From NCBI RefSeq assembly GCF_000373925.1, contig NZ_KB892757.1, forward strand, positions 40,618 to 104,617: DNA of 64,000 bases, written 5' to 3'. The notes beneath the pieces were generated by a model that was given only the letters and a program-made list of their open reading frames with translations, did no database searches and was not told where the DNA came from. A program made the position numbers and the translations under genes. Of the stretch, positions 2,626-57,899 are shown in pieces. Position 1 is the stretch's first letter, and each line of letters opens with the position of its first letter. Origin of the DNA: Actinopolymorpha alba DSM 45243. GTDB lineage: Bacteria; Actinomycetota; Actinomycetes; Propionibacteriales; Actinopolymorphaceae.

Positions 2626-2631
2626 AGCACC

Positions 2632-4682: not shown

Positions 4683-4737
4683 TGTAAAGCCATCCTTGAC
4701 ACCCCACCTCTCGACACGAGCGAAAGGTCGATCGACG

Positions 4738-5700: not shown

Positions 5701-5773
5701 CCTGCGGTGGCCGCTTGGCCAGTCGAGCTGAACTGAGCTGGACTTGCCGCGGCGACCTCAACTGGCGGTCCGG

Positions 5774-7785: not shown

Positions 7786-7823
7786 GGCGAGTGCTCTCCC
7801 TCCTCCGAAGTCCGCGGCTGCCG

Positions 7824-8585: not shown

Positions 8586-8655
8586 GACGTGTCTCCTCCA
8601 GTCGATGCTCGCGTTGACATCACCAGTCTGCGGGCTCGCCGCTGGTTCTTGAATG

Positions 8656-8688
8656 GACAATCCTGTCGAGGTCCTGGACAAGATTGTC
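8656..8688. promoter_or_regulatory. Twin palindromic operator between divergent genes
   Basis: Two 12-base boxes lie in the 163-base divergent intergenic region: GACAATCCTGTC at 8656-8667 and GACAAGATTGTC at 8677-8688. Each is an inverted repeat. The reverse complement of the first (GACAGGATTGTC) matches the second at 11 of 12 positions. Their spacing is 21 bases centre to centre, two helical turns, as expected for cooperative dimers of a repressor. The likely targets are the tartrate dehydratase gene at 8749 and the dioxygenase operon at 8585. Which regulator binds is unknown. Confidence 0.6.
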
Positions 8689-8748
8689 ACATTGACCAAC
8701 GGCCGGATCGGGCCTTCCCACCTGGCCGACGAGCAAGAGAAGGGGCCC

Positions 8749-43379: not shown

Positions 43380-44507
43380 ATGCCATCTCATACGTACCGT
43401 TCACGCATCGCCGCGCTCGACGTCCTGCGCGGGTTCGCGCTGTGCGGGATCCTGCTGGCCAACGTCCAGCCGATCGCGAACGCCGGCCGAACCATCGTGC
43501 GGGCTGCGTCAGAGACCAACGCGCCGTGGATGGGGTTGCTGGTCTACCAGCGCTTCTTCCCGATCTTCTCGCTGCTGTTCGGGATCGGCTTCTCGCTGTT
43601 GCTGGACTCCGCCACGTCCCGCGTCGCCCGGCCCCGGCTGCTCCTGCTGCGGCGCCTTCTGGTGCTGCTCGGGATGGGGGTGGCGCACTTCCTTCTCCTG
43701 TGGCAGGGCGACATTCTGGCCGCGTACGCGGTGGTCGGACTCGTGGTGCTGCTGCCCTCGACCTGGCTGCCGCGCTGGGCGGTGGCCGGCCTCGCCGCCG
43801 CGTTCCTCGCCCTGTCGTTGATCACCGCTGGCGGCCACCTGACGCTGGTCCCCGGGTTGTTCCTGCTCGGGTCGGCACTGACGAGGTACGGCGTGATCAG
43901 CCGGATCGACCGCTCCACCTGGGTGCCGGCCCTGCTGGCGGTGGTCTTCGTGGCCGTGGCAGCGCCCTTCCTGGTGTGGCAGAGCGGGTCGGATCAGCCG
44001 CGTGCGTCCGCCATCGCCGGGTTGCTGCTCGCCGGAGCGTACGTAAGTCTGCTGCTGGTCCTGCTCAGGACGCCGCTCCGGCCCGCGCTGCGGGCTGTCT
44101 TCGCGCCGCTGGGCACGATGGGGTTGACGAACTACCTGACCGCGTCACTGCTGGTGCGAGTGATCGCTCCGACCATCGGCGGGCCTCCGGAGACCTGGCC
44201 CGTGACGACGGTGCTCCTGATCGCTGGCGGCATCCTCACCGCGCAGTGGGTGTGGTCCACCCTGTGGCTGCGCCGCTACCACCAGGGCCCGCTCGAATGG
44301 CTCTGGCGCTGGGCGACCTGGATGCGCCGTCCGCCGCTGCGCCGCCTGCCGGTCGAAGATCCGCAACGTCTGCCACACGACGAAGCAGGCCAGCACGCTC
44401 CCGCCGAAGAAGACGAACAGCCCCGGCAGGCGGGCGAACACGGCGGACAACGACACCGCGGCCAGCACGACGAACGCCGTACGGAACGGGTGCGAGAGTC
44501 CCACTAA
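43380..44507 (+). CDS. DUF418-family membrane protein with an abnormal read-through tail
   Basis: A membrane protein with about nine hydrophobic segments from [24 protein letters not shown] to [20 protein letters not shown]. The DUF418 ending [18 protein letters not shown] normally lies a few residues from the stop. Here the frame continues for about 55 hydrophilic residues ([20 protein letters not shown] and on) because it runs antisense through the convergent DUF624 gene. ATG 43380 or 43371 can start it. Function of DUF418 proteins is unknown; they are often near LuxR-type two-component systems. Confidence 0.8.
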
Positions 44508-44954
44508 CGCCGCCGTCATGATCTGTTGACGCCAGGGCAGGTCGAGGTGGACGTACACCGGGAACAGATAGATCAGCGTCATGCAGTAGACACCCGACAG
44601 TGCCAACGACAGGACCAGCAGGGTCAGGGCCAGCGGCCCGGACTGCCCCAGGAAGAAGTTGACGTCCACGAAGAGCACGTAACCGGCGAGCACCAGACCC
44701 AGCCCGAGCGCGTTGGCCCTGAAGAACTCCGTGCGGTACGCCGTCCGGAATCTGCGGAACGCCGAATCGCCCTCGTCGCCAGCCGTCCTCATCCAGAACC
44801 TGGCTACATCGAACATCGCGACGGTCGCCGGAAAGAAGCCGAACACCAGCCCGCCGAGCAGGCAGCCGCCGAGCCACCACAGGTTGAGCAGGGCAAGCCG
44901 GTAAACCCACTGGCACGCCTCGTGGAACCCGCCCACCCACCCCCTCGGCTTCAT
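44145..44954 (-). CDS. DUF624 (YesL-like) membrane protein with a read-through tail
   Basis: A membrane protein of the DUF624 family with five segments ([105 protein letters not shown]). Relatives end just after the last one. Here the frame runs on about 60 residues antisense through the DUF418 gene. ATG 44954 follows GGAAGGAG; ATG 44978 is an alternative that overlaps the permease stop. DUF624 proteins in Bacillus (YesL) sit beside LplABC-type importers for rhamnogalacturonan, exactly as here, and may assist them. Confidence 0.82.
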
Positions 44955-44974
44955 CGTCACCGCTCCTTCCCCGC

Positions 44975-45868
44975 TCATCCCTTGAGCGCGCCGATCGTGA
45001 TGCCCTTGGTGAAGTAGCGCTGGGCAAACGGATAGAAGAACAGGATCGGGACGATCGCCAGGATCATCGTGGCGGCCTGGATGTTCTGGGGGAGGATCTG
45101 GTGCCCGTGCAGGGTGAGGTTCTCCAGCGACGTGGAGTGGGGGTCCTGGTTGATCAGCAGGTTGTACAACACCAGCTGGATCGGCTGGAGGCTCTTGTCC
45201 TGCAGGTAGATCAACGGGATCAGGAAGGAGTTCCAGATGGTGACGGCATAGAAGATGCCGGTCGTCGCCAGCACCGGGACGGCCAACGGCAGGTAGATCT
45301 TCCACATGATCTGGAAGTCGTTGGCGCCGTCGATCGACGCGGACTCCTCCAGCTCATCGGGAATCGACTCGAGATAGGCGCGGGTCACGATGAGGAGGAA
45401 GGTGCTGATCGCTCCCGGCAGGATCATCACCCAGCGGGAGTTCACCAGACCCAACCGGTCGTTGATGATGTAGTTGGGAATGATGCCGGCCTCGAAGATC
45501 CACGAGGCGAGGAACGCCATCATGATGAAGTGCCGGCCCCGGAACTTCTTACGGGACAGCACGTAGGCCGTGCAGTAGGTCAGAATCACCGCGACGAACG
45601 TCCCGACAACCGTGTAGAACACGGAGTTCAGCACTCCCTGCACGATGCCAAGGCGCGGATTGGTGAAGATGTAACGGTAGGTCTCGAAGTTGAGGCCCTT
45701 GGGCAGGAGATACACCTGACTCGAGGCCACGTAGGGTCCGTCGCTGACCGACACGCTGGCGATGTAGATGAAGGGATAGATACACGCCACCGCGATCAGG
45801 AGCAGGATGGCGCCGTTGACGATGTTGAACGCCTCGGGCCGCCTTCTGATCTTCGTTGTCGTACCCAT
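44975..45868 (-). CDS. ABC transporter permease, LplC/YtcP type
   Basis: A 297-residue permease with six segments. Features: FNIVNGAILLLIAVACIYPFIYIASVSVSDG at the N-terminus, LKG-style tail RYFTKGITIGALKG typical of YtcP/LplC, and EAA loop ESIPDELEESASIDGANDFQIMWKIYLPLA. This carbohydrate group (CUT1, LplABC) imports oligosaccharides such as unsaturated rhamnogalacturonides and uses a shared ATPase encoded elsewhere. Start overlaps the other permease stop (ATGA). Confidence 0.9.
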   Translation of the reverse strand: MGTTTKIRRRPEAFNIVNGAILLLIAVACIYPFIYIASVSVSDGPYVASSQVYLLPKGLNFETYRYIFTNPRLGIVQGVLNSVFYTVVGTFVAVILTYCTAYVLSRKKFRGRHFIMMAFLASWIFEAGIIPNYIINDRLGLVNSRWVMILPGAISTFLLIVTRAYLESIPDELEESASIDGANDFQIMWKIYLPLAVPVLATTGIFYAVTIWNSFLIPLIYLQDKSLQPIQLVLYNLLINQDPHSTSLENLTLHGHQILPQNIQAATMILAIVPILFFYPFAQRYFTKGITIGALKG

Positions 45869-46857
45869 CAGAAAAGCCTCGAATCTGAGAACTTCTTGGC
45901 TGCCCTGTTAGCGCCGACCACCATCACCAGTGCGAGCACAGCCTGAATGAGGCCCACGGCGGCTCCGTAGCTGTAGTTGGGGAACCCATGGGGAGCGAAG
46001 GCCTGCCGGTAGACGTAGGTCTGGATGACGTCGGCGGTTTCGTACACACTCGGGCCGTACATCAACAACACCTTGTCGAGGTCGACCGAGAGAATCTGGC
46101 CGATGTTCAGGATGAACATCACGATCATCATGTTGGAGATCGACGGCAGGGTGATGTTCCACATCTTCTTCCAGCGACCCGCGCCGTCGATCTCGGCGGC
46201 CTCGTAGAGTGCCGGGTCGATGGTGGTCATCGCGGCGATGTAGATGATCGTGCCGTAGCCGAAGGTCTGCCAGACGTTGATCAGCACGTACAACGGTCTG
46301 AACCACCCAGGCTCGGCCATGAAGAAGATCGGCTTGATCCCGAAGAAGCCGAGTGCTTCGTTGACCAGACCACCCTGGGGCGAGACGAGGGTGTAGAGGA
46401 TGCTCACGACCACGGCGGAGGAGACGAAGTACGGCAGGAAGCTGAAGGTCTGGACAGACTTCCTGACGTAGCGGTTCCTGACCTCGTTCAGGAAGAGCGC
46501 GAAGATGATCGGCGCCGGAAAGCTGAAGAGCAACGTGAAGAACGCCAGCAGCAGCGTGTTCGCCAACAGATGCGGGATCGCCGGATCGTGAAGGAACTTC
46601 GTGAACTGCTCGAAGCCGACCCACTGGCTGCCGAAGACGCCCTGGAACGGACTGAAGTTCTGGAACGCGATGACGAGGCCACCCAACGGCGCCCACTTGA
46701 AGATCACCAGGTGGAGCAGGCCGGGCAGGAGGATGAGATACAGCAGGTAGTTCTTCCGGAGCGTTCTCCAGAACCTCTGCCGCATGCTCAGCTTGTTGGT
46801 GAGCGCCTGCGCCGGCCCGCCCACGTCGGCGGTGGTGGTCCTCTGAATGGTGTCCAT
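45868..46857 (-). CDS. ABC transporter permease, LplB/YteP type
   Basis: A 329-residue permease. The N-terminal phrase RKNYLLYLILLPGLLHLVIFKWAPLGGLVIAFQNF and the ending GAAVGLIQAVLALVMVVGANRAAKKFSDSRLF are hallmarks of LplB/YteP proteins. EAA loop: YEAAEIDGAGRWKKMWNITLPSI. Works with the LplC-type permease and the binding protein at 46879-48426. No ATPase gene is present in this operon, as usual for the group. Confidence 0.9.
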   Translation of the reverse strand: MDTIQRTTTADVGGPAQALTNKLSMRQRFWRTLRKNYLLYLILLPGLLHLVIFKWAPLGGLVIAFQNFSPFQGVFGSQWVGFEQFTKFLHDPAIPHLLANTLLLAFFTLLFSFPAPIIFALFLNEVRNRYVRKSVQTFSFLPYFVSSAVVVSILYTLVSPQGGLVNEALGFFGIKPIFFMAEPGWFRPLYVLINVWQTFGYGTIIYIAAMTTIDPALYEAAEIDGAGRWKKMWNITLPSISNMMIVMFILNIGQILSVDLDKVLLMYGPSVYETADVIQTYVYRQAFAPHGFPNYSYGAAVGLIQAVLALVMVVGANRAAKKFSDSRLF

Positions 46858-46878
46858 AGGTCGTCAAGCACCTGTCGC

Positions 46879-48426
46879 CTATTTCCCCATGGCGTCGTAC
46901 GCCGCCTGGTCGAGCTCGGTGATCTTTGTGACGCCCTTCTTGTCCGCCTCGCTCAAGAAGGTGCTCCACTGCGCCATGGGCCGTTTGCCGGTGACGAACT
47001 TCACCACCTCGGCGTCGATGAATGGGCTCACGGCCGCGTCGAGGGCGCTGCGCTCCTCCAGTTGCTGGGGTGTGTACCGCAGGACTGGGTTCACCTCGAG
47101 GTAGTTGTTGAAGTACTCCGTCGCGAACGACTTGGTGAGCTTGTCCATCCACTGGTAGTAGGTCGCGTTGTCGACCGGTGCGGGGAAGGTGAGCCGGTCC
47201 TGCAGGAAGTTCCACACCGGCGTGCCCAACGGCTGGTTGCCCTCGCGCTCGAAACTCACGGCGTAGGCATTCTTGCCGCCCTCGACCTTGTACGACGTGC
47301 CCTCGACACCCCAGTGCATCAGGGTCTGGCCCTTGTCGGAGAACGTGAAGTCCATGAACTTGATGACGTCGGCGGCCTTCTTCGACTTGGCGCTGATGAC
47401 GAGGTACTGGTCGACGTTGTAGCGCTTGGCCGCCGGCACCTTCAGCTGCGTACCATCGGTGTCCTGGAAGGCTGGCAGGACGGCCATCGCGAACTTCGGG
47501 TCGTTCTTCGGTCCGCCGTTCTGCATGAACCACGAGGGCCTTGTGAAGAAGTCGGTGGAGACCGTGCCCCTCCCGGTCAGCATCTTGGTCTGCCAGGACT
47601 CCTCGGTGGCCGTGCCCGCGACCCATTCCGGATCGATGAGGCCTTCGGCGTACAACGTCCGATACCACTCGACCATGGCCCTGAAGCCCGGCGAGTGGAT
47701 GTCGAGTCCGCCGCCGCTTTCGTAGATGCCGTGGATCTTGCCGTTCTCGATTCCGTCCTGGGCCTTGAAGGCGTACCCCAGATTGAGGAGGTTCTCCCGA
47801 CCGAGATACGGGAAGTAGTTCTTGGTGCCGCGGTAGGCGGCCTTCAGTTTCCGTAGGGCGTCGGTGAACTCCGCGATGGTGCGCGGCGGTGTGTTGATTC
47901 CGGCCTTCTCGAACATGTCGGCCCGATAGAAGGTCACCGGGCAGATCTTGGGATACTCCGCGACCAGGCCGTAGATCTTGCCGTCCGGTGTGGAGATCAG
48001 GCCTTCGTAGTCGGGGTTGTCAGCGATGTACTTCTTGATGTGCGGCGCGTTCTGCTCGATGAGCGGCTTGAGGTCGACGAAGGCGCCCTGAGGGCCGTAG
48101 ACGAAAACCTGCGACATCGTGGCGATCGCGGCGTCCTGGATTCCGCCGGAGGTCAGCTTGAGATCGACCTGCTGGGCATAGCGATCTCTCGGGCCGCCAT
48201 CGATCAGGTCGATCTTGGCGTTCGCCGCCTTCGTCAGTGCGGGATACCACTTGTTGTCGTTGAGCCACGCGTAAAAGGCGTCGGGGAGGAGGTAGGAGAA
48301 CGACAAGGTGCCGTTGCTCCCGCCCGCGCTGCCGGACGTTCCGGATGTGCCACATCCAGCCGCGAGCATAAGTCCGAAGCTGCCGGCCAGAAAGCTGCGC
48401 CTGCGCACGAGATTCGGCTGGTTCAT
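46879..48426 (-). CDS. Extracellular solute-binding lipoprotein, LplA/YtcQ type
   Basis: A 515-residue family-1-like binding protein. A twin-arginine stretch (VRRRSFLAGS) and lipobox LAAGC with Cys25 mark a lipoprotein. Body phrases: FVYGPQGAFVDLKPLIEQNAPHIKKYI, DGKIYGLVAEYPKICPVTFYRADMFEKAGI and WVAGTATEESWQTKMLTGRGTVSTDFF. Length and style match LplA/YtcQ proteins, which bind oligosaccharides. It lies upstream of both permeases and 46 bases downstream of the aldolase gene. Confidence 0.9.
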   Translation of the reverse strand: MNQPNLVRRRSFLAGSFGLMLAAGCGTSGTSGSAGGSNGTLSFSYLLPDAFYAWLNDNKWYPALTKAANAKIDLIDGGPRDRYAQQVDLKLTSGGIQDAAIATMSQVFVYGPQGAFVDLKPLIEQNAPHIKKYIADNPDYEGLISTPDGKIYGLVAEYPKICPVTFYRADMFEKAGINTPPRTIAEFTDALRKLKAAYRGTKNYFPYLGRENLLNLGYAFKAQDGIENGKIHGIYESGGGLDIHSPGFRAMVEWYRTLYAEGLIDPEWVAGTATEESWQTKMLTGRGTVSTDFFTRPSWFMQNGGPKNDPKFAMAVLPAFQDTDGTQLKVPAAKRYNVDQYLVISAKSKKAADVIKFMDFTFSDKGQTLMHWGVEGTSYKVEGGKNAYAVSFEREGNQPLGTPVWNFLQDRLTFPAPVDNATYYQWMDKLTKSFATEYFNNYLEVNPVLRYTPQQLEERSALDAAVSPFIDAEVVKFVTGKRPMAQWSTFLSEADKKGVTKITELDQAAYDAMGK

Positions 48427-48472
48427 GATTGTCCTTCGGGGGATGGCAGTGATAAATGGTCGCCCTGTGGCG

Positions 48473-49237
48473 TCAGCCCCGTGCGAGAGAGAGGTGCGTA
48501 CGAGCGGCTTGCTCGAGGTGGGTCAGGTCGGAGGCGACACTGGCGAAGGTGAATCCTTCGGCGAGCCGCTTCGCCGCGGCTTCTCCGTTCAGTGTGTGGA
48601 TGCCGGCGGCCACGTTGGCCGACCGGGCCGCGTCGCGAATTGTGTGCAGAGCCGCCTCGAACTCATCGGCCACGGACGGATCACCTGGAAAGGCGCCGCC
48701 GACGGCCAGCGAGAGGTCTGAGGGACCGACGTACACACCGTCGAGTCCCGGGGTTTGACAGATGGCCTCGACGTTGGCCAGTCCTTGCGATGTCTCGATC
48801 ATGGCGAACACCAGGGTGCTGGCGTTCGCTTCGTCCGGACGGGGTCCGATCCGCAACGATGCGCGCATCGGACCATACGAGCGCACCCCGAACGGTGGGT
48901 ATCGGGTCGCACTCACGGCGGCGGCCGCTTCGGCCGCGGTGTTGATCAACGGGACGATGACCCCGCCCGCGCCGGCATCCAGTGCTCGGCCGATCGGTGT
49001 CGGGTCGTTGGACTCCACCCGTACCAGGCCCACGGACTGTGCCCCGGCGTCGATCGAGAGGAGGTTGGTGAGAATTCCTGAATAGCCGAGGAGACCGTGT
49101 TGCCCATCGAGGGCGACGTAGTCGTAGCCCAGCCGGCCGATGCGTTCGGTCGCGATGGGCGCGTCGAGGACGACCCAGTAGCCGATCGCCTTCTCGCGAC
49201 GGCGGATCCGGGCGGCGAAGTCGGCGGCGATCGTCAT
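48473..49237 (-). CDS. HpcH/HpaI family aldolase (second copy)
   Basis: A 254-residue class II pyruvate aldolase. Key residues: base His47 (LDGQHG), Arg73 (LVRVES), metal ligand Glu148 (AMIETSQG) and Asp174 (VGPSDLSLAVG). It is clearly diverged from the copy at 1406-2200 and is the only carbon-carbon lyase of the thirteen-gene unit, so it probably makes the final cut of a 2-keto-4-hydroxy acid into pyruvate and an aldehyde. Confidence 0.9.
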   Translation of the reverse strand: MTIAADFAARIRRREKAIGYWVVLDAPIATERIGRLGYDYVALDGQHGLLGYSGILTNLLSIDAGAQSVGLVRVESNDPTPIGRALDAGAGGVIVPLINTAAEAAAAVSATRYPPFGVRSYGPMRASLRIGPRPDEANASTLVFAMIETSQGLANVEAICQTPGLDGVYVGPSDLSLAVGGAFPGDPSVADEFEAALHTIRDAARSANVAAGIHTLNGEAAAKRLAEGFTFASVASDLTHLEQAARTHLSLARG

Positions 49238-49276
49238 GATTGGCTACTCCACATCGGGCTGGTACGGAGGTACGGA

Positions 49277-50257
49277 TCAGCGGTTGTAGGCGGGCATCGG
49301 GCCGCGAAGGGTGGCACCCACGTCGTCGCAGGCGGCCACGACGTCAGCTGGCAGTGGACCTTCGGCGGCGGCGGAAAGGTTCGCTCGCAGGTGTGCGACG
49401 TTCGATCCGCCGAGCAGGACCGCACCCGCGCCCGGCTTACTGAGAAGCCATCGCAGGGCAAGTGCCGGCAGGGGGATCCCGGCCGCACCCGCGACCTGGG
49501 CCAGCGACCGCACGGCTCCGAACAGCTCCGGAGTCCAGTACCGCCGCTTGTACGTCTCCGCCACTCTGGAGTCGCCGAAGCGCCCCGAGGTGGGGTGATC
49601 TTCGTACGTATGAAGACCGGTGAGCAGGCCGCCGGCCAGCGGGTTGTAGACCATGGTCAGGATTCCCGAGACCTGCGCGAACTCGAGGTACTCGTCCTCG
49701 ATGCGACGGGCCACCAGGTTGTAGAGCTGCTGCGCGACGACCGGGCGGGGCATCGAGAGGTCGTCCGCGAGGTGGTTGATCTCCGCGATCTGCCAGGCCG
49801 CGAAGTTGGAGACCCCGAGCGCCTTGACCAGACCCTTGTCGACGAACTCCGCGATCGTGGAAAGGGTCTCTGTCAACGGAGTGGAGCGGTCTGGCTGGTG
49901 AAGGTAGTACACGTCCACACTGTCGACGCCGAGCCGGCGCAGGCTGCCTTCGAGGCTCGCCCGCAGACCCTGGGCGGACAACGGCGCATGCGCACCCGCG
50001 TCCGGATGCGGGATGCCCGCCTTGGTGGCCAGGACGACCTGGTCCCGGCGCGGTCCCAGAAGCTCCTTCAGCATCGTCTCGGCGGCCCCGCCGGCATAGC
50101 CGTTCGCGGTGTCGATGCCAGTGATCCCCGCGTCGAGTGCCGCGTCCAGCATGCTCGCGGCCTCGGCGGTGCCGGCCGTGTCGCCGAAGGTCATGGTGCC
50201 CAGCACCAGGCGCGACAGCGGCGTCGAGACGCCGGGCAGGGTGATGGTCTCCGTCAT
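49277..50257 (-). CDS. Aldo/keto reductase
   Basis: A 326-residue NADP-dependent AKR with Asp49 and Tyr54 (GIDTANGYAGG), Lys79 (VVLATKAGI) and His in VYYLHQPDRS. The cofactor region AVLLGGSNVAHLRAN is at about 282-296. The ATG at 50257 overlaps the DUF6807 stop (ATGA); a start at 50266 is less likely. In the operon it would oxidise or reduce a sugar or aldehyde intermediate next to the Gfo/Idh/MocA dehydrogenase. Confidence 0.9.
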   Translation of the reverse strand: MTETITLPGVSTPLSRLVLGTMTFGDTAGTAEAASMLDAALDAGITGIDTANGYAGGAAETMLKELLGPRRDQVVLATKAGIPHPDAGAHAPLSAQGLRASLEGSLRRLGVDSVDVYYLHQPDRSTPLTETLSTIAEFVDKGLVKALGVSNFAAWQIAEINHLADDLSMPRPVVAQQLYNLVARRIEDEYLEFAQVSGILTMVYNPLAGGLLTGLHTYEDHPTSGRFGDSRVAETYKRRYWTPELFGAVRSLAQVAGAAGIPLPALALRWLLSKPGAGAVLLGGSNVAHLRANLSAAAEGPLPADVVAACDDVGATLRGPMPAYNR

Positions 50258-51138
50258 CCAAACCACCGGGCCGCGCGATCGTGGTCGAGGGCACCGTCAT
50301 AGGCGACGGTCCGCAGGGCGACGGTCCAGACCTCGCCCTGGCGAAGGTGAACGGGCGCCAGATGCGTGGGATTGAACATCGCCATGCCGTAGTCCCGGCA
50401 GAACCACGGCCCGGTCAGGTCGTCGGCCGCGGTGTTGGCCAGCGCCTTCAGGCAGACGCCATACCTCCCGACAGAGGGGACATCGGCTTCGTACGCCACG
50501 TAGTCACAGGACCGACCGTTGACGACGTCCTCCGCGCTTCCTGAGCGGCGTTCGCCCTTCTCCACCGCGATGACCTGGCCGCCGAGCACCGGAAGCAGCT
50601 GTGGTTGGACGCGTACGCCGATCACGCCGTGCTTGGTCCGGCTGAACTCCACGTCGGCGTAGCTGGCCCGCTTCGACGTGGTGAGGTCGACCACGGTGGC
50701 GTCCTGGACCGATCGGACGTCGATGACCCGCACCTCGTCGAACATCGGCTGGAGTTCCTCGTCGCACCACGTGGTTTCGTAGGTGAAACGGAATCCGTCG
50801 GCCAGTTGCTCGACCACCGGATCCTCGTATCTCAGCAGACCGATCCTGGAGAAGATGTAGTTGTCCGGTGCCCGCCAGTCTGGCTGGAACGCCCAGAACT
50901 GCGCCTCGCGGCCACCGGCGTTCACAAGTCCCTGGCCCACGAAAATGCTGCGGTGGAAGGGATGATCGAACGCCGACTCCTGGGTCACGCCGATCCCGTG
51001 CGGGGTGTTGACCGGAAAGACCCACGCGCGCTGGTGGTCGTTCCCGACCCCGGCCAGCAGCCGTCCCGTCGACCGCTCGACGACGAGCCGGGCCGTGCCA
51101 CCGGCGGCTCGGCGAAGCTCGTAGGGCTCACCATTCAC
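50254..51138 (-). CDS. DUF6807 (PmoA-like) family protein (second copy)
   Basis: A 294-residue protein of the same family as 5774-6628 but only distantly alike. The landmark HGIGVTQESAFDHPFHRSIFVGQGLVNAGGREAQFW is near residues 47-83. Beta-rich body, no signal peptide. GTG 51138 follows AAGGGAAG. It overlaps the Gfo/Idh/MocA gene by 11 bases and the AKR by 4, so three genes are translationally linked. Function unknown; a sugar epimerase or lactonase-like role on the dehydrogenase product is a reasonable test. Confidence 0.78.
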   Translation of the reverse strand: MNGEPYELRRAAGGTARLVVERSTGRLLAGVGNDHQRAWVFPVNTPHGIGVTQESAFDHPFHRSIFVGQGLVNAGGREAQFWAFQPDWRAPDNYIFSRIGLLRYEDPVVEQLADGFRFTYETTWCDEELQPMFDEVRVIDVRSVQDATVVDLTTSKRASYADVEFSRTKHGVIGVRVQPQLLPVLGGQVIAVEKGERRSGSAEDVVNGRSCDYVAYEADVPSVGRYGVCLKALANTAADDLTGPWFCRDYGMAMFNPTHLAPVHLRQGEVWTVALRTVAYDGALDHDRAARWFG

Positions 51139-52201
51139 GGCTTTCTTCCCTTCTGGAGAAGGCGGACGCGTAGCGCTGGTCCCCGGCGACGTCGATCCGC
51201 ATACCGGACTCGGCCGACCTCATCGCGCCGTCGATGAGACTCAGCACCCGAAGGTTGCGACGGCCACTGAACGGCGGCTCGGGTCCGCCAGTCAGGTAGG
51301 CGTACCACGCGTCAAGGTAGGGTTGCCATGGCCCCTGCACGGGCAGGTCCTCGTCGATCTGGATTGGCTCGAAGGCCCCCAACCGGTCCGCGAACTCGTA
51401 CGCCATCGTGTCGACCGACATGTGGAGCCCGCGACAGCGCAGCACACCCTTCGTGCCCTCGAACCGGACGTCGTACATCGGCGCCTGGGCGCAGAACCCA
51501 CCGTGATAAACGATGTGGACGCGGTTATCGACCTCGATGAGGGCGTTCACCATGCCTGCCCCGGCGTACGGCGACCAGGTGGGGTTGTATTCCTGGCACG
51601 ACACTGACGTCGGCATCGGCTCACCGAGCACCGAGAACAGCGAGTCGAAGTGGTGGCAGGAGGCTTCGTACAACGCAGGATGGATCATCCGGGCGAGGTT
51701 CGCGGGCTCGGGTCTGGGCTTGCTGTTCTGGAAGAACACCGCCTCGACGTCGCCGAGCCGACCCGACTCGACGAATCTGCGTACCGCCTGATAGTGGCGG
51801 TTGAATCGCAGTTGTTGGACGACGCTGAGGGTCACCCCGCGCTCCTCGGCGAGGTCCACCAGAGCGACCGCGTCCTTCCATTCGGCCGTCATCGGCTTGG
51901 CCACCAGCGCGTCCAGCCCGGCTTCGATGGCCGCCCTGGCCTGCGGATAGTGCAGCTCCGCTGGGGTGTTGACGAGTACGGCGTCAACCTGGGCCTGCGC
52001 GAGTGCTTCGTCCAGGTCGGTGAACGTCGCGATACCGGGAGCGAGGCGCTCGAGGTCGTCCAACGCGTTCTGGCGTACGTCGACCGCGGCAACGACCTCG
52101 AGCCAGGGCTTGGCCCGCAACTCCGGCAGCATGGACCGGGTGATTCCGCCCGCCCCGACGATCGCAAGGCGGACTTGACGCTGGGCGTTCATCGCGTTCA
52201 T
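51128..52201 (-). CDS. Gfo/Idh/MocA-family NAD(P)-dependent oxidoreductase
   Basis: A 357-residue sugar dehydrogenase-like enzyme. N-terminal Rossmann motif IVGAGGITRSM (14-24), the family EKP site appears as VAKPMT (Glu replaced by Ala, Lys kept), and the C-terminal domain has ASCHHFDSLFSVLGEP with the catalytic-type His. Members oxidise a sugar hydroxyl to a ketone, which can permit beta-elimination of glycosidic bonds. ATG 52201 overlaps the racemase-like stop (ATGA). Likely takes the imported sugar or a derived acid. Confidence 0.9.
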   Translation of the reverse strand: MNAMNAQRQVRLAIVGAGGITRSMLPELRAKPWLEVVAAVDVRQNALDDLERLAPGIATFTDLDEALAQAQVDAVLVNTPAELHYPQARAAIEAGLDALVAKPMTAEWKDAVALVDLAEERGVTLSVVQQLRFNRHYQAVRRFVESGRLGDVEAVFFQNSKPRPEPANLARMIHPALYEASCHHFDSLFSVLGEPMPTSVSCQEYNPTWSPYAGAGMVNALIEVDNRVHIVYHGGFCAQAPMYDVRFEGTKGVLRCRGLHMSVDTMAYEFADRLGAFEPIQIDEDLPVQGPWQPYLDAWYAYLTGGPEPPFSGRRNLRVLSLIDGAMRSAESGMRIDVAGDQRYASAFSRREESREW

Positions 52202-52944
52202 TGCTTCGGCTCCCTTCCGGACTTACGGGAGACCCGTCCTTCGGCCGCGAGCAACCGGCCGAAGCCTCTGACTGGTTCGCCGACACCGACAGCCCGCAGG
52301 GCGTTCCAGAGGGCCGCCTGGTTACTGCTGACCACCTCCAGGCCGGTGTCCCATTCGAGTGCCTCGAGAACCTCGAAGGTCCTGGTGTTGCCGCACGACA
52401 GCAGCAGGGTGTCGGCGTCCGGTGCCTCCGCCGCGACCTCGCGACCGAGCCGGTAGAAGACGTGGGGTTCCTCGGCACCGAACTCCGCGCTGCGCGTCTT
52501 CGCAAGACCTCGGGCCGCCACGACCTCGAAACCCTCGCCGCGAAGATACCCAGCGAGTTCGGCGTTCTGGGCTTGCGTGTAAGGGCTGGCGAGCGCCACC
52601 CGACGGGCGCCGACGGCACGAAGCCCCGCCACCATCGAGCCCAGCACCGTGAGGCCCGGAACTCCGGTGGCGGCCTCGATCCGATGCCGGATCTCCTCCT
52701 CGCGACCCAGGGCGGCCAGCGTGCTGCACTGCACGATTACCTCGGCTCCGGCCGAGGCGACCTCGGCGGCGGCGCGCTCGAGTTCGGTCAGCATCCGGTC
52801 GTGGCTGCTCCGGTCGTTGGTGACCATCGAATACCGGCTGCCGACGAACGCGACTCCCGCTGGCGCGGCTTGTCGCCACTCCTCCTGGCCGACGGTCGCC
52901 GGCGAAGGGTTGACGTGGCCGATGCGTGCTCTCCAGCCGTACAT
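52198..52944 (-). CDS. Aspartate/glutamate racemase superfamily protein (maleate isomerase-like)
   Basis: A 248-residue protein of the Asp/Glu/hydantoin racemase and maleate isomerase superfamily. The two active cysteines are Cys73 (VIVQCSTLAALG) and Cys184 (LLLSCGNTRTFE). N-terminus YGWRARIGHVNPSP and KTRSAEFG match the arylmalonate decarboxylase/maleate isomerase branch. It may racemise, isomerise or decarboxylate a dicarboxylic acid. ATG 52944 overlaps the FAH-family stop. Substrate unknown. Confidence 0.82.
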   Translation of the reverse strand: MYGWRARIGHVNPSPATVGQEEWRQAAPAGVAFVGSRYSMVTNDRSSHDRMLTELERAAAEVASAGAEVIVQCSTLAALGREEEIRHRIEAATGVPGLTVLGSMVAGLRAVGARRVALASPYTQAQNAELAGYLRGEGFEVVAARGLAKTRSAEFGAEEPHVFYRLGREVAAEAPDADTLLLSCGNTRTFEVLEALEWDTGLEVVSSNQAALWNALRAVGVGEPVRGFGRLLAAEGRVSRKSGREPKQ

Positions 52945-53837
52945 CACGACTCCTTCTCGACGACCTGATTACGCAGGACCCCGACACCGCTGATCCGTGC
53001 CTCCACCACGTCACCGGGCTGGAGGAACTCCGGCGGTGTGCGGGTGTAACCCACGCCGTCAGGTGTGCCCGTCGCGATGACGTCGCCCGGCTCGAGCGTC
53101 ATGCCGAGCGAGAGGTGGGCGATGATGTCGTGGACGGGAAAGATCATCTGGCTGGTCTCGCCGTCCTGCTTGACCACGTCGTTGACGGCGAGGCTGAGCC
53201 GGAGTGACTGGTCGGGGGCGATCTCGTCGGCGGTGACGATCCACGGGCCCATCGGGCAGGTGCCGTCGATGCTCTTGCCGCGAAAGAACTGCCCGCCGTG
53301 CCGTCGCTGCAGGTCGCGTACCGAAACGTCGTTGATGATGGTGTAGCCGAAGATGTGGGATCGCGCCTGCTCGGCAGGGATGTCGCGGCCACCCTGACCG
53401 ATGACGACGCCCAGCTCGACCTCCCAGTCCCAGTCGACGGAGACCCGGCTGTCACGTGGAATCGGCGCACCGGGGCCGATGACGGTGGTCGGTGCCTTGC
53501 TGAAGAACACCGGCCAGTCGGGGCGCTTGGCTTCCTCGCCCCGATAGCCCGCACCTTCTTGGACGTGGCGGAAGTAGTTGAGGCCGACGGCGAAGACGTT
53601 CTTGCGCGGTCGCGGAATGGGCGCGAGCAGCGTGGCCTCGCCGAGGGGAAGGCAGGGGAGGGAACCACCGTCCACCGCGAGGATTTCCCGCAGCCGGTCG
53701 AGAAGCGGGGTGCCGCCTTCGATCAACTCGACCATATCGGCCGGGATCTCCGGGTGCCGGCTGACAATCCTGACGTCGTCCCGCTCGACCACTCCGATGT
53801 GTCGCTCGCCGCCGATGGCAACAGTAGCCAGTCGCAT
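52944..53837 (-). CDS. Fumarylacetoacetate hydrolase family protein
   Basis: A 297-residue FAH-family enzyme with metal-site phrases VGLNYFRHVQE, DWDWEVELGVVIG (the E-x-E metal ligands) and the lid/substrate region FRGKSIDGTCPMGPWIVTADEI, plus ATGTPDGVGYTRTPPEFLQPGDVVE. Bacterial members hydrolyse, decarboxylate or hydrate beta-keto or acylpyruvate acids; several dehydrate 2,4-diketo or deoxy sugar acids (for example 2,4-diketo-3-deoxy-fuconate/rhamnonate hydrolases). ATG 53837 has GGAG 8 bases upstream. Suggests a deoxy-keto-acid intermediate in this pathway. Confidence 0.9.
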   Translation of the reverse strand: MRLATVAIGGERHIGVVERDDVRIVSRHPEIPADMVELIEGGTPLLDRLREILAVDGGSLPCLPLGEATLLAPIPRPRKNVFAVGLNYFRHVQEGAGYRGEEAKRPDWPVFFSKAPTTVIGPGAPIPRDSRVSVDWDWEVELGVVIGQGGRDIPAEQARSHIFGYTIINDVSVRDLQRRHGGQFFRGKSIDGTCPMGPWIVTADEIAPDQSLRLSLAVNDVVKQDGETSQMIFPVHDIIAHLSLGMTLEPGDVIATGTPDGVGYTRTPPEFLQPGDVVEARISGVGVLRNQVVEKES

Positions 53838-53842
53838 GCTCG

Positions 53843-54874
53843 TCACTCCGTCCCGGAGAGTTGGTTCTCGGACAGGGGAACCCGCTCCTCGAAGGTCTGG
53901 AGAATCGAGAACGGAAGGTCGTAGGTGTAGAAGCTCCGGATATAGAGATTGGATATTCCGGAGGCCTCCAGCGCCCGAATTCGCGCGCGAATCTCCTCGC
54001 CGGTGCCGATGATGGTGAACGTCTCGCAGTACTCCTCGAGCACGTCGTCAGGAACCCACTCCGTCTTCTCGATCGCCTCGTCCCAGTCCTCGGCGTGCAG
54101 GAGGTCGGGGTAGACGCTGTGGATGGTGAAGCCGTCGGGGATCGTGACACCGAAGTCGCGTTCGGTCCCCTGATAGCGCAGGGCATAGAGAGCGGCGTAC
54201 GGCTGTGCCTGTTTCTTGGCCCACGCGGGGTCGTCGGTGACCTGGACATAGACGCCGCAGGCGACGTCGACGTCATCGAGAGTGCGCCCGGCTCGTTTGG
54301 CTCCGATTTCGATGTTTCCGAGTCCGAATTCGAGGGCCTCGGGAGAGATACCGGTGACCATGATCGCGCCGTCGGCGATTTCACCGGCCAGCTGCAACAT
54401 CCGCTTGCGGGACGCGCCAATGTAAACCGGAATGGGTCGCGACGACGCGGCGCGCATCCGGAATCGCCGACCGTCCTGCTCGATCCATTGCTCTGCCCAC
54501 AGGGCCCGCATGAGTTCGATCGCCGCGCGAATCTGGGCGAGCGTGGCGGTCCGGTGGCCCAAGGTGGTGACGGCGCTCTCGCCGCTGCCGATGCCGACGA
54601 TGAGGCGGTCGTCGCTGAGTTCGGCCAACGTGTGTGCGGCCGAGGCGCTGACCGTTGGAAATCTGCTCAGGGGATTCGTGACGTTCGGGCCGAGGAAGAC
54701 CCGGGAGGTACGCGCCGCGATGACTGCCAACGTCGCCCAGACGTCGCGGTGGAGGAGCTGGCTGTCCGGCACCCAGATGCCGTCGAAGCCCGCGCGTTCC
54801 GCCCGTTCGCAGAAGTCCGCGACCTCCGAGGCCGGAGCGCAGGCGGGTACCCGAAGTCCACAACGCATGCCCAT
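53843..54874 (-). CDS. LLM-class (luciferase-like) flavin/F420-dependent oxidoreductase
   Basis: A 343-residue TIM-barrel luciferase-like monooxygenase/F420 reductase. Family phrases: FDGIWVPDSQLLHRDVWATL, VFLGPNVTNPLSRFP, DRLIVGIGSGESAVTTLG and PIPVYIGASRKRMLQLAGEIADG. Members without a flavin reductase partner in Actinomycetota commonly use F420 (for example methylene-tetrahydromethanopterin reductase-like and F420-dependent sugar-phosphate dehydrogenase proteins). It is the first gene after the regulator and palindrome. Presence in a carbohydrate unit is unusual and hints at an F420-linked redox step or oxidative ring opening. Confidence 0.85.
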   Translation of the reverse strand: MGMRCGLRVPACAPASEVADFCERAERAGFDGIWVPDSQLLHRDVWATLAVIAARTSRVFLGPNVTNPLSRFPTVSASAAHTLAELSDDRLIVGIGSGESAVTTLGHRTATLAQIRAAIELMRALWAEQWIEQDGRRFRMRAASSRPIPVYIGASRKRMLQLAGEIADGAIMVTGISPEALEFGLGNIEIGAKRAGRTLDDVDVACGVYVQVTDDPAWAKKQAQPYAALYALRYQGTERDFGVTIPDGFTIHSVYPDLLHAEDWDEAIEKTEWVPDDVLEEYCETFTIIGTGEEIRARIRALEASGISNLYIRSFYTYDLPFSILQTFEERVPLSENQLSGTE

Positions 54875-54902
54875 GTCACCTTCGATGGAGAGGAGGGGCT
54901 CC

Positions 54903-54924
54903 GAGCCTGTTCGAGAACAGGCTC
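54903..54924. promoter_or_regulatory. 22-base palindromic operator ahead of the LLM-led operon
   Basis: GAGCCTGTTC-GA-GAACAGGCTC is a perfect inverted repeat 28 bases before the LLM gene start, in the 137-base gap after the RpiR gene. On the minus strand it would lie at or just downstream of the promoter, so a repressor is likely; the neighbouring RpiR protein is the first candidate. Confidence 0.6.
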
Positions 54925-55011
54925 TTACCTCGTTCTGGCAGGCAACGGTAGGGCCCGCGTTACGGCGGTGTCAACGGTTGTTCTGCTATCAACCGGGGTG
55001 CAACAGATCGT

Positions 55012-55956
55012 TTATTCTTCGGCGGCGGCCAGCTGCGCGATGAGCCCCTCACTGAGGTACTCGTCATGCAGGGCCTGCTCGATCTCCTTGGTCCGCGCGG
55101 GGTTGCGGCTCGCGATGGCGGCGGCCAGACACTCGACGGCCGCCAGCGAGGCGACCAGGGAGAACGCCATGGTCGCGCCCTGGGCGGGAGCGAAGATCGA
55201 GTAGTCCGCCAGCTTCGCCTGCGGGCTGGAAGCCGAGCCGGAGATCGCGACCGTCACCGCACCGCGTTCCTTGGCCGCCTGAAGGCTTGCCACCACGCCC
55301 CGGAACGTCAACCACCCGCCGATCGCGAGGACGACGTCCTCCTTGCCGAGGTCGTGGAACGCGATCACCCGGTCGACCGACGCGGTGGAAACCGCTTCAC
55401 CAGAAAGGCCGACATGGCGGAGCAGGCGTACGAAGAAGGTGGCTGGAATGGAGGCCGCACCCTCGCTGCACACCAGGATCCGGCGGGCCCTGATGAGAAC
55501 GTCGGCGATCGCGTCGAGGTCGGTGTCGGCGAGATTCTCGTAGGCGACCTTGAGATTGGCCAGGTGTTGGACGCGGGTCGCCTCGACTGCCTGGTTGGGC
55601 GTATCCCAGGCCTCTTCGGGATCGCGGGGAGCCTGGAGGCCGGCATGGTGCAGATAGGCGCGGCGTACCGCCGCCTGCAACGCCTGGTAGCCACTGAAGT
55701 CCAGCGTCTTGGCGAATCGCACGATGGTGGCGACGTTGACCTGAGCGAGCTTGGCGACCTCGCGGATCGATCCGAACGCGACCATCTCCGGGTTGGCAAG
55801 AATCGCCTCCGCAAGCTGTTGTTGCTTGCGGGGCAGCTCCGACAGGCGCGCCCAGATGTCACTGAAGGGAGCGGTTTCCAGGAGTCCGCTGTTGGAGAAG
55901 GTCTTCCTCTTCGCGTCTCCCGCGGCTCCGGTGGTGCGCCGTCGTCGTTCGGCCAT
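55012..55956 (-). CDS. RpiR/MurR-family transcriptional regulator
   Basis: A 314-residue regulator. An N-terminal HTH_6 domain (about 35-105: LSELPRKQQQLAEAILANPEMVAFGSIREVAKLAQVNVATIVRFAKTLDFSGYQAL) is joined to a SIS sugar-phosphate-binding domain (about 145-290: RRILVCSEGAASIPATFFVRLLRHVG, KEDVVLAIGGWLTFRGVVASLQAAKERGAVTVAISG). RpiR proteins sense phosphorylated sugars or sugar acids. ATG 55956 has GGAG 6 bases upstream; an in-frame start at 56076 would overlap the isomerase gene. It lies in the same transcription direction between the isomerase and the main operon. Confidence 0.9.
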   Translation of the reverse strand: MAERRRRTTGAAGDAKRKTFSNSGLLETAPFSDIWARLSELPRKQQQLAEAILANPEMVAFGSIREVAKLAQVNVATIVRFAKTLDFSGYQALQAAVRRAYLHHAGLQAPRDPEEAWDTPNQAVEATRVQHLANLKVAYENLADTDLDAIADVLIRARRILVCSEGAASIPATFFVRLLRHVGLSGEAVSTASVDRVIAFHDLGKEDVVLAIGGWLTFRGVVASLQAAKERGAVTVAISGSASSPQAKLADYSIFAPAQGATMAFSLVASLAAVECLAAAIASRNPARTKEIEQALHDEYLSEGLIAQLAAAEE

Positions 55957-55969
55957 CGAGTTCTCCGTC

Positions 55970-56794
55970 TCAGCTGTCGGCCCGCGCTGCCTGGATGGCA
56001 GCCGCGGCGTCGGCGGCTGCCTGCGCGACATTCTGGCCTGGCAACAGCGGTTGGTGCACGGTGAACCAGCCGTCATAACCCGACGTGCGGAGCGTGCTCA
56101 GAACATCGACGAGACTGATGCCGTCCGGATCGTCGATCGGCGCGTACCGGAAACGTACGTCCGGATTCGTCGGCACCCCCAGAGGGCCGTCGGGCGTGAG
56201 GACAGCGTTGGAGTAGTACGCGTTCACCAGGAACGGCGCGAGCCGCTCGATGGCGGGTTTCCATTCCTGGCCGCACAACAGCAGGTTGGCTGGCTCGTAG
56301 GTGATCCCGAACGCCTCCGGCCGGTCGATCTCGGCGAGGGTGTCGAGCGCCGCCTCGACGGTCTCGAAGAGCGTGCCCCAGTGAAGCTGGTGGGCGAGCA
56401 CCAGGCCGCGGCGGGCGGCCCGCTCCGCGGCACGGCGGGCGTACGGGATGTCGGCGGGGGAGCGGAGCGCCACCCGGATCAGCCGGGCTCCCAGTGTCTC
56501 GGCGAGGTTGAGGTACGGGTCGATGTCGCGGAGCATCGCGCTGGCCCGCTCGTCGTTGGCGGCGAGGTGGATGTCTCCGGTGATCATGGAGACCTCGAGT
56601 TGGCTGCTGACCACGGCCTCGCGGACGGCACGGACCTGCTCGGGTGGGGAGTCGACCGAGACGACGGAGGCGCGGAGGCAGACGCCGGCGTACCCCTGCT
56701 CGCGGGCGATCGCGGCCAGAGCGGGGAACGAGGTCACGATTTCGGTCTTGTCCCGCGGAGATTCCGCGATCCGGACCGACAGCGAGTACCGCAT
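55970..56794 (-). CDS. Sugar phosphate isomerase/epimerase-like TIM-barrel protein
   Basis: A 274-residue xylose-isomerase-like TIM barrel (AP_endonuc_2 fold). Metal-site acids are suggested by LEVSMITGDIHLA, LVLAHQLHWGTLFETVEAALD, GITYEPANLLLCGQEW and GWFTVHQPLLPGQN. Members include inosose dehydratase, D-psicose epimerase and 3-oxo-isoapionate decarboxylase-type enzymes. First gene of the unit, 13 bases before the RpiR gene. Likely isomerises or decarboxylates a keto sugar acid. Confidence 0.82.
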   Translation of the reverse strand: MRYSLSVRIAESPRDKTEIVTSFPALAAIAREQGYAGVCLRASVVSVDSPPEQVRAVREAVVSSQLEVSMITGDIHLAANDERASAMLRDIDPYLNLAETLGARLIRVALRSPADIPYARRAAERAARRGLVLAHQLHWGTLFETVEAALDTLAEIDRPEAFGITYEPANLLLCGQEWKPAIERLAPFLVNAYYSNAVLTPDGPLGVPTNPDVRFRYAPIDDPDGISLVDVLSTLRTSGYDGWFTVHQPLLPGQNVAQAAADAAAAIQAARADS

Positions 56795-56871: not shown

Positions 56872-57849
56872 CTAGGCAGGCCTTGACAGAGACAGGGCGA
56901 AGTCGCCGGGCGGATCCGTCCACCAGGCTTCGAGGGTGAGGCCGGCGGCGGCGAGTTCCTTCTCCACGCCGTCGGGCCGGAACTTCGCCGAGATCTCCGT
57001 CCGCATTTCCTCGCCCGCGGCGAAGTCGACGACGAGATCGAGCCCGTTGATCCGTGCGGACTGGTCCGTGGCCGATCGCAACCGCATCTCGATCCACTCC
57101 TGGTGAGGATCCCAGATCGCCACGTGCTCGAACGCCTCCGGCATGAAGTCGCCGTCGAGCGACTGGTTGATCACCCGGAGCACGTTGCGGTTGAAGTCCG
57201 CGGTGACCCGCGCGCTGTCGTCGTACGCCAGGACCAGCCGGTGCGGATCCTTCACGAGATCGGTGCCGAGCAGCAACCGATCGCCGTCGTGGAGGTTGGC
57301 CCGCAGCGCGGCGAGGAAGCGGGCCCGGGGTTCGGGCGGGAAGTTGCCGATCGTCCCGCCGAGGAACGCCACGAGACGGCTGCCTTCGGTGGGCAGGAGG
57401 TGAAGATGGCGTTCGAAGTCCGCGACCACCCCGTGCATGCGGACGCCGGGATAGTCGCGCAGAAGTGCCTCGAGCGCCCCGCGCAGCGCGCTCTCGCTCA
57501 CGTCCACCGGCACGTAGCCATGGAGTCGCCCGGTGGCGCGCATCCCGTCCAGGAGCAGGCGGGTCTTGGTCGACGATCCCGACCCCAGCTCCAGCAGCGT
57601 GTCGGCGCCCGCGCGCCTGGCGATGTCGTCCGCGTACGCCGTCAGGATCGCGTGCTCCGCCCGGGTCGGGTAATACTCGGGCAGCCGGGTGATCCGCTCG
57701 AAGAGCTCACTACCCCGGGCATCGTAGAAGTACTTCGGTGGCAGGGCTTTCGGCATCTGCGACAACCCGTGGCGTACATCGCTGGCAAGGCTTGCCATCA
57801 GGTCGGCGTCGGTCAGGTAACGGCTCAGTCGGGGAACGGTGCTGCGCAT
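56872..57849 (-). CDS. egtD: L-histidine N(alpha)-methyltransferase
   Basis: A 325-residue SAM-dependent enzyme that converts histidine to hercynine, the first step of ergothioneine synthesis. Family phrases: PKALPPKYFYDARGSELFERITRLPEYYPTRAE, SAM site LLELGSGSSTKTRLLLD (about 84-100), VPVDVSESAL, LGGTIGNFPP, GTDLVKDP and YDDSARVTADFNRNVL. Last gene of an egtABCD run. GAGGAGG precedes the ATG at 57849. Confidence 0.96.
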   Translation of the reverse strand: MRSTVPRLSRYLTDADLMASLASDVRHGLSQMPKALPPKYFYDARGSELFERITRLPEYYPTRAEHAILTAYADDIARRAGADTLLELGSGSSTKTRLLLDGMRATGRLHGYVPVDVSESALRGALEALLRDYPGVRMHGVVADFERHLHLLPTEGSRLVAFLGGTIGNFPPEPRARFLAALRANLHDGDRLLLGTDLVKDPHRLVLAYDDSARVTADFNRNVLRVINQSLDGDFMPEAFEHVAIWDPHQEWIEMRLRSATDQSARINGLDLVVDFAAGEEMRTEISAKFRPDGVEKELAAAGLTLEAWWTDPPGDFALSLSRPA

Positions 57850-57899
57850 GGTTCCGCGTACCTCCTCGTCAACCCTGGCTTGCGCCAGGTTCGGACGTC

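Follow-up and report, generated by a model that had tools for sequence, protein, structure and literature searches.

Organization of the thirteen-gene unit

The 64,000-nucleotide stretch of the Actinopolymorpha alba DSM 45243 genome analysed here (contig NZ_KB892757.1, positions 40,618 to 104,617, G000:C51:40618-104617 in our numbering; G+C 0.67), hereafter called the window, belongs to a draft assembly of 127 contigs that total 7.98 Mb. According to its list of open reading frames, it carries a unit of thirteen genes at 44145-56794, all on the minus strand, which encode a TIM-barrel protein (TIM), an RpiR-family regulator, an LLM oxidoreductase, a FAH-family enzyme, a racemase-like enzyme with two Cys (AMD), a Gfo/Idh/MocA oxidoreductase (Gfo), a DUF6807 protein, an aldo/keto reductase (AKR), an HpcH/HpaI aldolase (HpcH), and an importer with a YesL-like protein (Table 1). 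The original prediction had described thirteen genes of these families running in one direction, and the open reading frames and Pfam scans agree with it; the Pfam scores lie above the curated cut-offs, and the second permease was assigned by reading, without a Pfam scan.

From LLM through AKR, each gene overlaps the next at the start-stop junction, namely LLM/FAH by 4 bases (GTGA), FAH/AMD by 1, AMD/Gfo by 4 (ATGA), Gfo/DUF6807 by 11, and DUF6807/AKR by 4 (ATGA). Further downstream, the spacing is +39 bases for AKR/HpcH, +46 for HpcH/binding protein, +21 for binding protein/permease, -1 between the two permeases, and +20 for permease/YesL. TIM and RpiR are 13 bases apart, and a gap of 137 bases, which contains a palindrome, separates RpiR from LLM. 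Because of the overlaps and short gaps on one side and this 137-base gap on the other, the main transcript likely runs from LLM to the YesL gene, with TIM and RpiR ahead of it. A promoter scan detected no sigma-70-like promoter, and eight terminator-like sites were found against 5.3 expected.

Table 1. Features of the thirteen-gene unit, followed by related groups in the same genome
Feature	Position	Strand	Evidence
TIM-barrel protein, AP_endonuc_2 family	55970..56794	-	Pfam AP_endonuc_2 57.8 bits; predicted fold; ligand columns
RpiR-family regulator	55012..55956	-	HTH_6 55.8 bits and SIS 30.9 bits
Perfect palindrome, 10-bp arms, GAGCCTGTTC-nn-GAACAGGCTC, candidate RpiR operator	54903..54924	.	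Pattern scan
LLM oxidoreductase, probable F420 (Mer-like) branch	53843..54874	-	Bac_luciferase 178.6 bits
FAH-family enzyme	52944..53846	-	FAH 244.7 bits; aligned residues
AMDase/maleate-isomerase/racemase-like enzyme (AMD), two Cys	52198..52944	-	Amdase PF17645 123.4 bits
Gfo/Idh/MocA oxidoreductase	51128..52201	-	GFO_IDH_MocA 79.7 bits
DUF6807 protein, galactose-mutarotase-like predicted fold	50254..51138	-	DUF6807 (PF14100) 101.5 bits, gathering score 27
Aldo/keto reductase (AKR), start at 50257	49277..50257	-	Aldo_ket_red 225.5 bits
HpcH/HpaI (GarL-like) aldolase	48473..49237	-	HpcH_HpaI 112.9 bits
LplA/AlgQ-type binding protein	46879..48426	-	SBP_bac_1 49.2 bits
Permease, LplB-type	45868..46857	-	BPD_transp_1 59.1 bits
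Permease, LplC-type	44975..45868	-	Placed by reading
YesL-like DUF624 protein, conserved part ends near 44346	44145..44954	-	DUF624 77.0 bits
Genes resembling hydroxypyruvate isomerase and tartronate-semialdehyde reductase, with the palindrome between them, and a D-2-hydroxyacid dehydrogenase gene	L068:8950-11690 (G000:C97)		
HpcH, second group	1406-2200		
AKR, second group	4537-5700		By reading
Second DUF6807, about 31% identical to the first	5774-6628		
Enolase-family gene, second group	8653-9921		
Pectin-directed group: GH29, GH127, pectinesterase, GH28, Apiosidase-like/DUF5060 proteins, BNR, DHDPS, Dpp-type importer	10854-39070		Importer by reading

A palindrome shared with a second locus

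The RpiR protein of the unit has both the HTH_6 and the SIS domain of its family. With up to three mismatches allowed, the palindrome beside its gene (54903-54924) has no other match in the window, and it appeared in none of 100 shuffles. Its 18 fixed core bases occur without mismatch twice in the genome, here and at C97:9738-9757, where about 8e-5 such perfect sites would be expected from base composition alone. In all, the genome holds two perfect, no one-mismatch, one two-mismatch and nine three-mismatch copies, against a total of two (up to three mismatches) for the reversed control; since the nine copies exceed this control, some of the weak, three-mismatch sites may be real. A genome-wide repeat was rejected, as only two perfect copies and no one-mismatch copy are present.

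The second perfect copy shares bases with the stop codon of a hydroxypyruvate-isomerase-like gene. About 70 bases downstream of it follows a gene resembling 2-hydroxy-3-oxopropionate (tartronate semialdehyde) reductase (TIGR01505, 310.4 bits, below the cut-off of 340.75), and next to that a D-2-hydroxyacid dehydrogenase gene. An extra palindrome half-site stands directly ahead of the reductase-like start codon. Genes of the tartronate-semialdehyde reductase type are the expected partners of a GarL-like aldolase, and the palindrome common to both places therefore ties such partners to the unit. As judged from the sequence, the palindrome is a candidate operator that RpiR may bind, and the pair offers direct access to the regulon and, through it, to the end product.

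Importer and pectin-directed surroundings

The binding protein, the two permeases and the DUF624 protein form a complete LplABC-YesL gene set, and the nearest solved relatives of the binding protein are 5xs8, AlgQ1/AlgQ2 and 5gub. The window also carries a pectin-directed group of carbohydrate genes, as well as a second group (1406-9921) with its own HpcH, AKR and DUF6807 genes and an enolase-family gene, which probably represents another deoxy-sugar-acid route. This second group also encodes a protein with a weak cupin match and adjoins an alpha-L-fucosidase gene.

At 44345/44346, the conserved parts of the YesL gene and of a convergent, plus-strand DUF418-like gene abut at one base, and each frame continues antisense into the other (end points chosen by eye). 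An old deletion perhaps joined the two genes.

Enzymes of the unit

The solved relatives of FAH are, in order of rank, 8sky, 6iym, 1gtt (HpaG), 6v77 and 8gsr, the last of which is L-2,4-diketo-3-deoxyrhamnonate hydrolase. The top NCBIfam model, NF053535, describes the same hydrolase, with 192.6 bits for FAH and a cut-off of 500 that is not reached. Residues H94, E97, E142, E144, D173 and K191 are invariant in four aligned sequences, and we take this lid His-Glu pair, the acidic residues and the Lys to be catalytic, as in the hydrolase/decarboxylase branch. HpcH is nearest to 6r62, a hydroxyketoacid aldolase, and to GarL-type models (TIGR03239, 2-dehydro-3-deoxyglucarate aldolase, 153.4 bits, below the cut-off of 406.75), while Gfo has a weak match to DgpA.

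The LLM protein is closer in sequence to F420-using than to flavin mononucleotide (FMN)-using members of its family. Its best relatives in the PDB are the F420 enzyme Mer, with 129 bits against 30.6 bits for the FMNH2-type SsuD, and it scores 167.3 bits with PRK02271, below the cut-off of 276. CofD, the sole F420 gene searched for, is represented by a family member on contig C53; another, on C87, reads as YvcK. Because of these relatives and the CofD-family gene elsewhere in the genome, F420 is favoured over FMN, and LLM is probably F420-dependent. Among the F420 enzymes of the LLM family listed in a review (PMC8498797) are some that oxidise sugar phosphates and secondary alcohols.

AMD resembles the arylmalonate decarboxylase (AMDase) family, and yields 112.1 bits with the model NF052327, whose cut-off of 225 is not reached. 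AMDase possesses a single catalytic Cys near the C-terminus and no Cys in the first loop, while enzymes of the Asp/Glu racemase and maleate isomerase type have a Cys at both active-site positions. The second Cys of AMD is conserved in all 13 aligned relatives, and the first is present in 12 of the 13 (by reading); the two Cys named in the original prediction are thus confirmed. Because both active-site Cys are present, AMD fits the racemase/isomerase pattern and fails the single-Cys AMDase pattern. Its first Cys aligns with a Cys of 3ixm, which is presumably an engineered residue.

The predicted fold of TIM (predicted TM-score, pTM, 0.80; alignment of four rows) is close to the sugar-epimerase-like Art22/UlaE (Z 24) and to DgpB-DgpC (Z about 22). 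Glu-Asp-His-Glu are the metal ligands of AP_endonuc_2 sugar isomerases and epimerases, and the columns that hold E-D-H-E in three aligned relatives read Q, E, S/Y and H in TIM (four sequences, 24-30% identity). The protein thus seems to be a TIM barrel without the usual metal ligands; of the label "TIM-barrel isomerase" in the original prediction, the barrel stands and the isomerase has become doubtful, because these columns are altered.

For DUF6807, no solved relative was obtained by sequence search, and its alignment held three rows. The best structure model has a mean predicted local distance difference test score (pLDDT) of 69.6 and a pTM of 0.77, the other four models having pLDDT of 44-53. 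Fold matches include a PL26 rhamnogalacturonan lyase (Z 15.7, root-mean-square deviation 3.6 over 241 residues) and a putative mutarotase (Z 15.0, 3.4 over 218 residues); the first ten VIA rows lie within 1 Z and are tied, and Foldseek ranks galactose mutarotase first. The predicted fold is therefore galactose-mutarotase-like, a fold that by itself shows no function. In each of the three loci seen (two in the window and one in Catellatospora), an HpcH-family gene is found no more than about 5 kb from the DUF6807 gene. A metagenome clone reported in PMC5342196 has its PF14100 gene beside an enolase-family gene and two beta-galactosidase genes, possibly as one operon, and in an excerpt of PMC10971088, DUF6807 appears as a number only.

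Partial conservation in other genomes

A locus of Catellatospora methionotrophica (L050/L035) shares AMD (79-80% identical), RpiR (37%), HpcH (36%), Gfo (50%) and DUF6807 (43-45%) with the unit. Unlike the unit, it has a Dpp-type rather than an Lpl-type importer, two DHDPS-family genes, a NagA-like gene, a ROK kinase gene and a gene for an Asp-box protein that reads as secreted. An AKR-family gene lies some 15 kb beyond its 20-kb core. The locus also differs in bearing palindromes of another kind, GGTATACC, at L035:9912-9925 (between HpcH and AMD) and L035:13918-13931 (before Gfo); this pattern is absent from L050 and from the window, and its control is partly circular because the pattern was derived from the Catellatospora locus itself. 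At four-fold sites, the two AMD genes are 38.8% identical, with 36.9% expected at random. Since these silent sites are saturated, the likeness is old and maintained by selection. Because the four-fold sites are at chance level, the idea that AMD passed recently from one genus to the other was rejected.

When 84,980 species, each represented by one genome, were scanned with AMD, three relatives were obtained (79, 36 and 27% identical), although relatives of 50-60% could be missed because exact 8-residue patterns were used. At E<=1e-20, AMD was found in 5 of 245 genomes of the order and 9 of 394 of the class, counts that include its own genome, and in 3 of 200 genomes of the Catellatospora family, Catellatospora itself included; the remaining matches in these samples are 28-38% identical. 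In the 20-kb surroundings examined in ten of the twelve other order and class genomes (all except G323 and G335), LLM-like genes lie near AMD in two loci, without sugar genes, and a second AMD occurs in one; no further unit gene was detected there at 1e-6. In two loci of the Catellatospora family (L052 and L053), AMD is the sole match to the unit, and the rest are general transporter parts. One genome of the same order carries an AMD relative and an LLM relative (39% identical to that of the window) 9 kb apart (G180:C34:105747-116320).

LLM, TIM and DUF6807 were counted in even samples of genomes rather than in full surveys. LLM (E<=1e-60) was found in 3 of 240 genomes of the order (its own, and relatives of 39% and 38%), so none above 39% is present in the other 239. 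TIM (E<=1e-15) was detected in its own genome only among 166, and the same applies to DUF6807 among 240 (E<=1e-20) and 325 (E<=1e-12) genomes.

FAH (E<=1e-70) is present in 10 of 178 genomes of the class, its own included. In five of the nine others, all of one genus, it is flanked by an AP_endonuc_2-type TIM barrel gene on one side and a D-2-hydroxyacid dehydrogenase gene on the other; the other four comprise two genomes of the same genus without this arrangement and two short fragments. Longer DNA was examined for five of the nine. Three of these loci (L083, L084 and L085) combine the arrangement with a Gfo-family gene and an RpiR gene. Sugar permeases and a D-mannonate dehydratase (ManD) gene are present in two of them (one ManD scored 659.8 bits against a cut-off of 550), and a DHDPS-family gene and a BNR sialidase-like gene in one. 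The remaining two loci adjoin genes that read, without a Pfam scan, as amidohydrolases and ABC parts. Of their proteins, FAH alone is close to its counterpart in the window (49-54% identical), RpiR being 25-29% identical. Unlike the unit, L083, L084 and L085 have no match to LLM, AMD or DUF6807, and they hold the D-2-hydroxyacid dehydrogenase gene in the operon itself, whereas A. alba carries one behind the second palindrome, on a different contig.

Among plasmids, no DUF6807 match was found. In the 12 plasmid records listed of 208 for LLM and of 167 for AMD, the best identities are 36% and 42%, respectively, and all are below 60%. The plasmid loci examined comprise an Aminobacter AMD whose gene lies within an operon for a Dpp-type importer that also includes a dapA-annotated gene, a Streptomyces LLM amid transposases, a Haladaptatus AMD, and an AMD relative of Acidovorax carolinensis (plasmid pACP3.2, L060), which stands beside AKR, Gfo/Idh/MocA and lig genes, at the margin of a protocatechuate 4,5-cleavage cluster. 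In none of these four is LLM annotated together with AMD, FAH or DUF6807.

The original prediction had stated that the enzyme combination fits no pathway and that a gene order not conserved in relatives would speak against a single unit. The first statement is not supported, as FAH, TIM and D-2-hydroxyacid dehydrogenase recur together in five of nine genomes, and AMD, Gfo, DUF6807 and HpcH in Catellatospora. Lack of conservation was found in part: no locus examined has the whole set, and LLM and TIM are without close relatives in the samples, while parts recur in Catellatospora and at the FAH loci. No description of this gene combination was found in searches of open-licence literature.

Proposed route and alternatives

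Our preferred reading, to which we give roughly even chances, is that RpiR controls the genes as a single catabolic unit, whose substrate, an acidic sugar or a sugar acid that probably derives from pectin, would be degraded without phosphorylation and end in pyruvate. Import and catabolism of a sugar acid by pyruvate-forming families had been anticipated, and is backed by the 5xs8, AlgQ and 5gub relatives of the binding protein, the pectin-directed genes of the window and the recurring palindrome. We infer the substrate, every reaction and the reaction order, and two of the folds are predicted; gene order, families, overlaps, the palindrome pair and the partial conservation are directly observed.

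In this route, the Lpl/AlgQ-type importer would take up the acidic sugar or sugar acid, and Gfo, DUF6807 and AKR would oxidise, reduce or ring-shift it to a 2-keto-3-deoxy acid. From there, HpcH may perform a retro-aldol cleavage to pyruvate and tartronate semialdehyde or a similar aldehyde, which would pass to the tartronate-semialdehyde-reductase-like enzyme encoded behind the second palindrome. As an alternative or additional exit, LLM may oxidise the acid to a 2,4-diketo acid with F420 as acceptor, and FAH would hydrolyse this, giving pyruvate plus a hydroxy acid. The two-Cys AMD could isomerise, epimerise or decarboxylate one of these acids, as a racemase-type step. The combination is assembled from parts that recur in sugar-acid routes; its new and unproved elements are LLM and the exact reaction of AMD.

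Several observations weigh against this reading. The whole gene set is present in none of the loci examined. FAH, TIM, LLM and AKR have no match in the Catellatospora 20-kb core locus, the best LLM match in that genome is only 31% identical, and its HpcH is encoded on the other strand. The palindrome was not seen at the Catellatospora locus either, and that genome holds no copy with fewer than three mismatches (14 three-mismatch places, control 7); as the palindrome follows the 3' end of a gene at both of its sites in A. alba, it may act as a hairpin. At a blastp threshold of 1e-4, no relationship was detected between TIM and Gfo of the window and their namesakes at the FAH-relative loci, so this parallel is one of families only. 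The window enzymes score below the NCBIfam equivalog cut-offs, and therefore no reaction can be named by family alone. No enolase- or DHDPS-type sugar-acid dehydratase is among the thirteen genes, such genes occurring elsewhere in the window. Finally, the binding protein and the two permeases have a G+C content of 0.60-0.63, against 0.65-0.70 in the other ten genes, which allows a separate origin.

A rival reading has a smaller but real chance, namely that two or more separate modules lie side by side by accident, one of Gfo, DUF6807, AKR and HpcH with the importer, and one of LLM, FAH and AMD for another compound. The genes unmatched in Catellatospora, the lack of close LLM and TIM relatives in the sampled order, the 39- and 46-base gaps before HpcH and the binding protein, the lower G+C, and the two of ten AMD loci with LLM-like genes and no sugar genes would all suit such a composite. 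However, the overlaps running from LLM through FAH, AMD, Gfo and DUF6807 to AKR cross the supposed border; moreover, AMD, from the FAH side, lies near Gfo and DUF6807 in Catellatospora, and FAH relatives also occur with RpiR and Gfo.

It is unlikely that the unit degrades a plant-phenolic glycoside, which would be deglycosylated by Gfo oxidation and lyase-type steps of TIM and DUF6807, before LLM, AMD and FAH degraded the aglycone fragment. FAH relatives do include homoprotocatechuate-pathway enzymes, the Acidovorax AMD relative neighbours AKR, Gfo and protocatechuate 4,5-dioxygenase genes, Gfo matches DgpA weakly, and the predicted TIM fold is close to DgpB-DgpC, which are C-glycoside-cleaving enzymes. 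Yet the latter Z is no better than that of the sugar epimerase, TIM seems to have lost the canonical ligands, Pfam scans found no ring-cleaving dioxygenase family in the unit, and the carbohydrate genes of the window are pectin-directed.

A more specific proposal, and a long shot, is that the substrate is one of the rarer acidic sugars of pectin, for which rhamnogalacturonan-II offers examples in aceric acid and the heptulosaric acid Dha. In such a route, an F420-dependent LLM would make the diketo acid for FAH, and AMD would represent a distinct, strongly conserved two-Cys subfamily of the AMDase family with a new isomerisation or decarboxylation. If true, this would be, to our knowledge, the first plant-polysaccharide route with an F420 step.

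A nonulosonic-acid (sialic-acid-like) route is very improbable: the RpiR, Dpp-type importer, two DHDPS, NagA-like, ROK kinase and Asp-box genes of Catellatospora and the DHDPS (20937), BNR (28320) and Dpp-type (by reading) genes of the window would fit it, but none of the thirteen genes is of the NanA, NanE, NanK or NagA type, the DHDPS genes are far below the NanA cut-offs, and the Catellatospora Asp-box protein has no Pfam sialidase match.

If the reading as a single sugar-acid unit is right, it yields three testable assignments, namely a role for DUF6807, an F420-dependent sugar-acid step and a new two-Cys activity in the AMDase family. The payoff would likely be a new branch of a known pathway type, not a new type.

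Comparison with known systems

The non-phosphorylating L-rhamnose route (LRA5/LRA6) uses 2,4-diketo-3-deoxyrhamnonate hydrolase and an NAD dehydrogenase. The unit is similar in that FAH is related to 8gsr and NF053535 and is surrounded by oxidoreductases and an importer. It differs in the NF053535 score (192.6 of 500 bits), in lacking an LRA3-type dehydratase, in adding AMD and DUF6807, and in having an F420-type LLM, if correctly assigned, in place of the NAD dehydrogenase.

The Bacillus LplABC-YesL system imports rhamnogalacturonides and, like the unit, consists of a binding protein, two permeases and an adjacent DUF624 protein. Unlike that system, the binding protein of the unit is nearest in the PDB to 5xs8, AlgQ and 5gub. 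The GarL-GarR end of galactarate degradation is paralleled by the GarL-like HpcH and the GarR-like gene behind the same palindrome; in contrast, the NCBIfam cut-offs are not reached and the unit has no galactarate dehydratase, the enolase-family gene lying at 8653-9921.

Other genes of the window

An enolase-family gene at 39072-39818 encodes the C-terminal domain only, with no match for the N-terminal domain, and a 668-residue protein without a Pfam match is encoded amid the carbohydrate genes (32306-34312). Finally, the genes at 56872-61155, upstream of the unit, read as an ergothioneine cluster in the order egtD, egtC, egtB and egtA.

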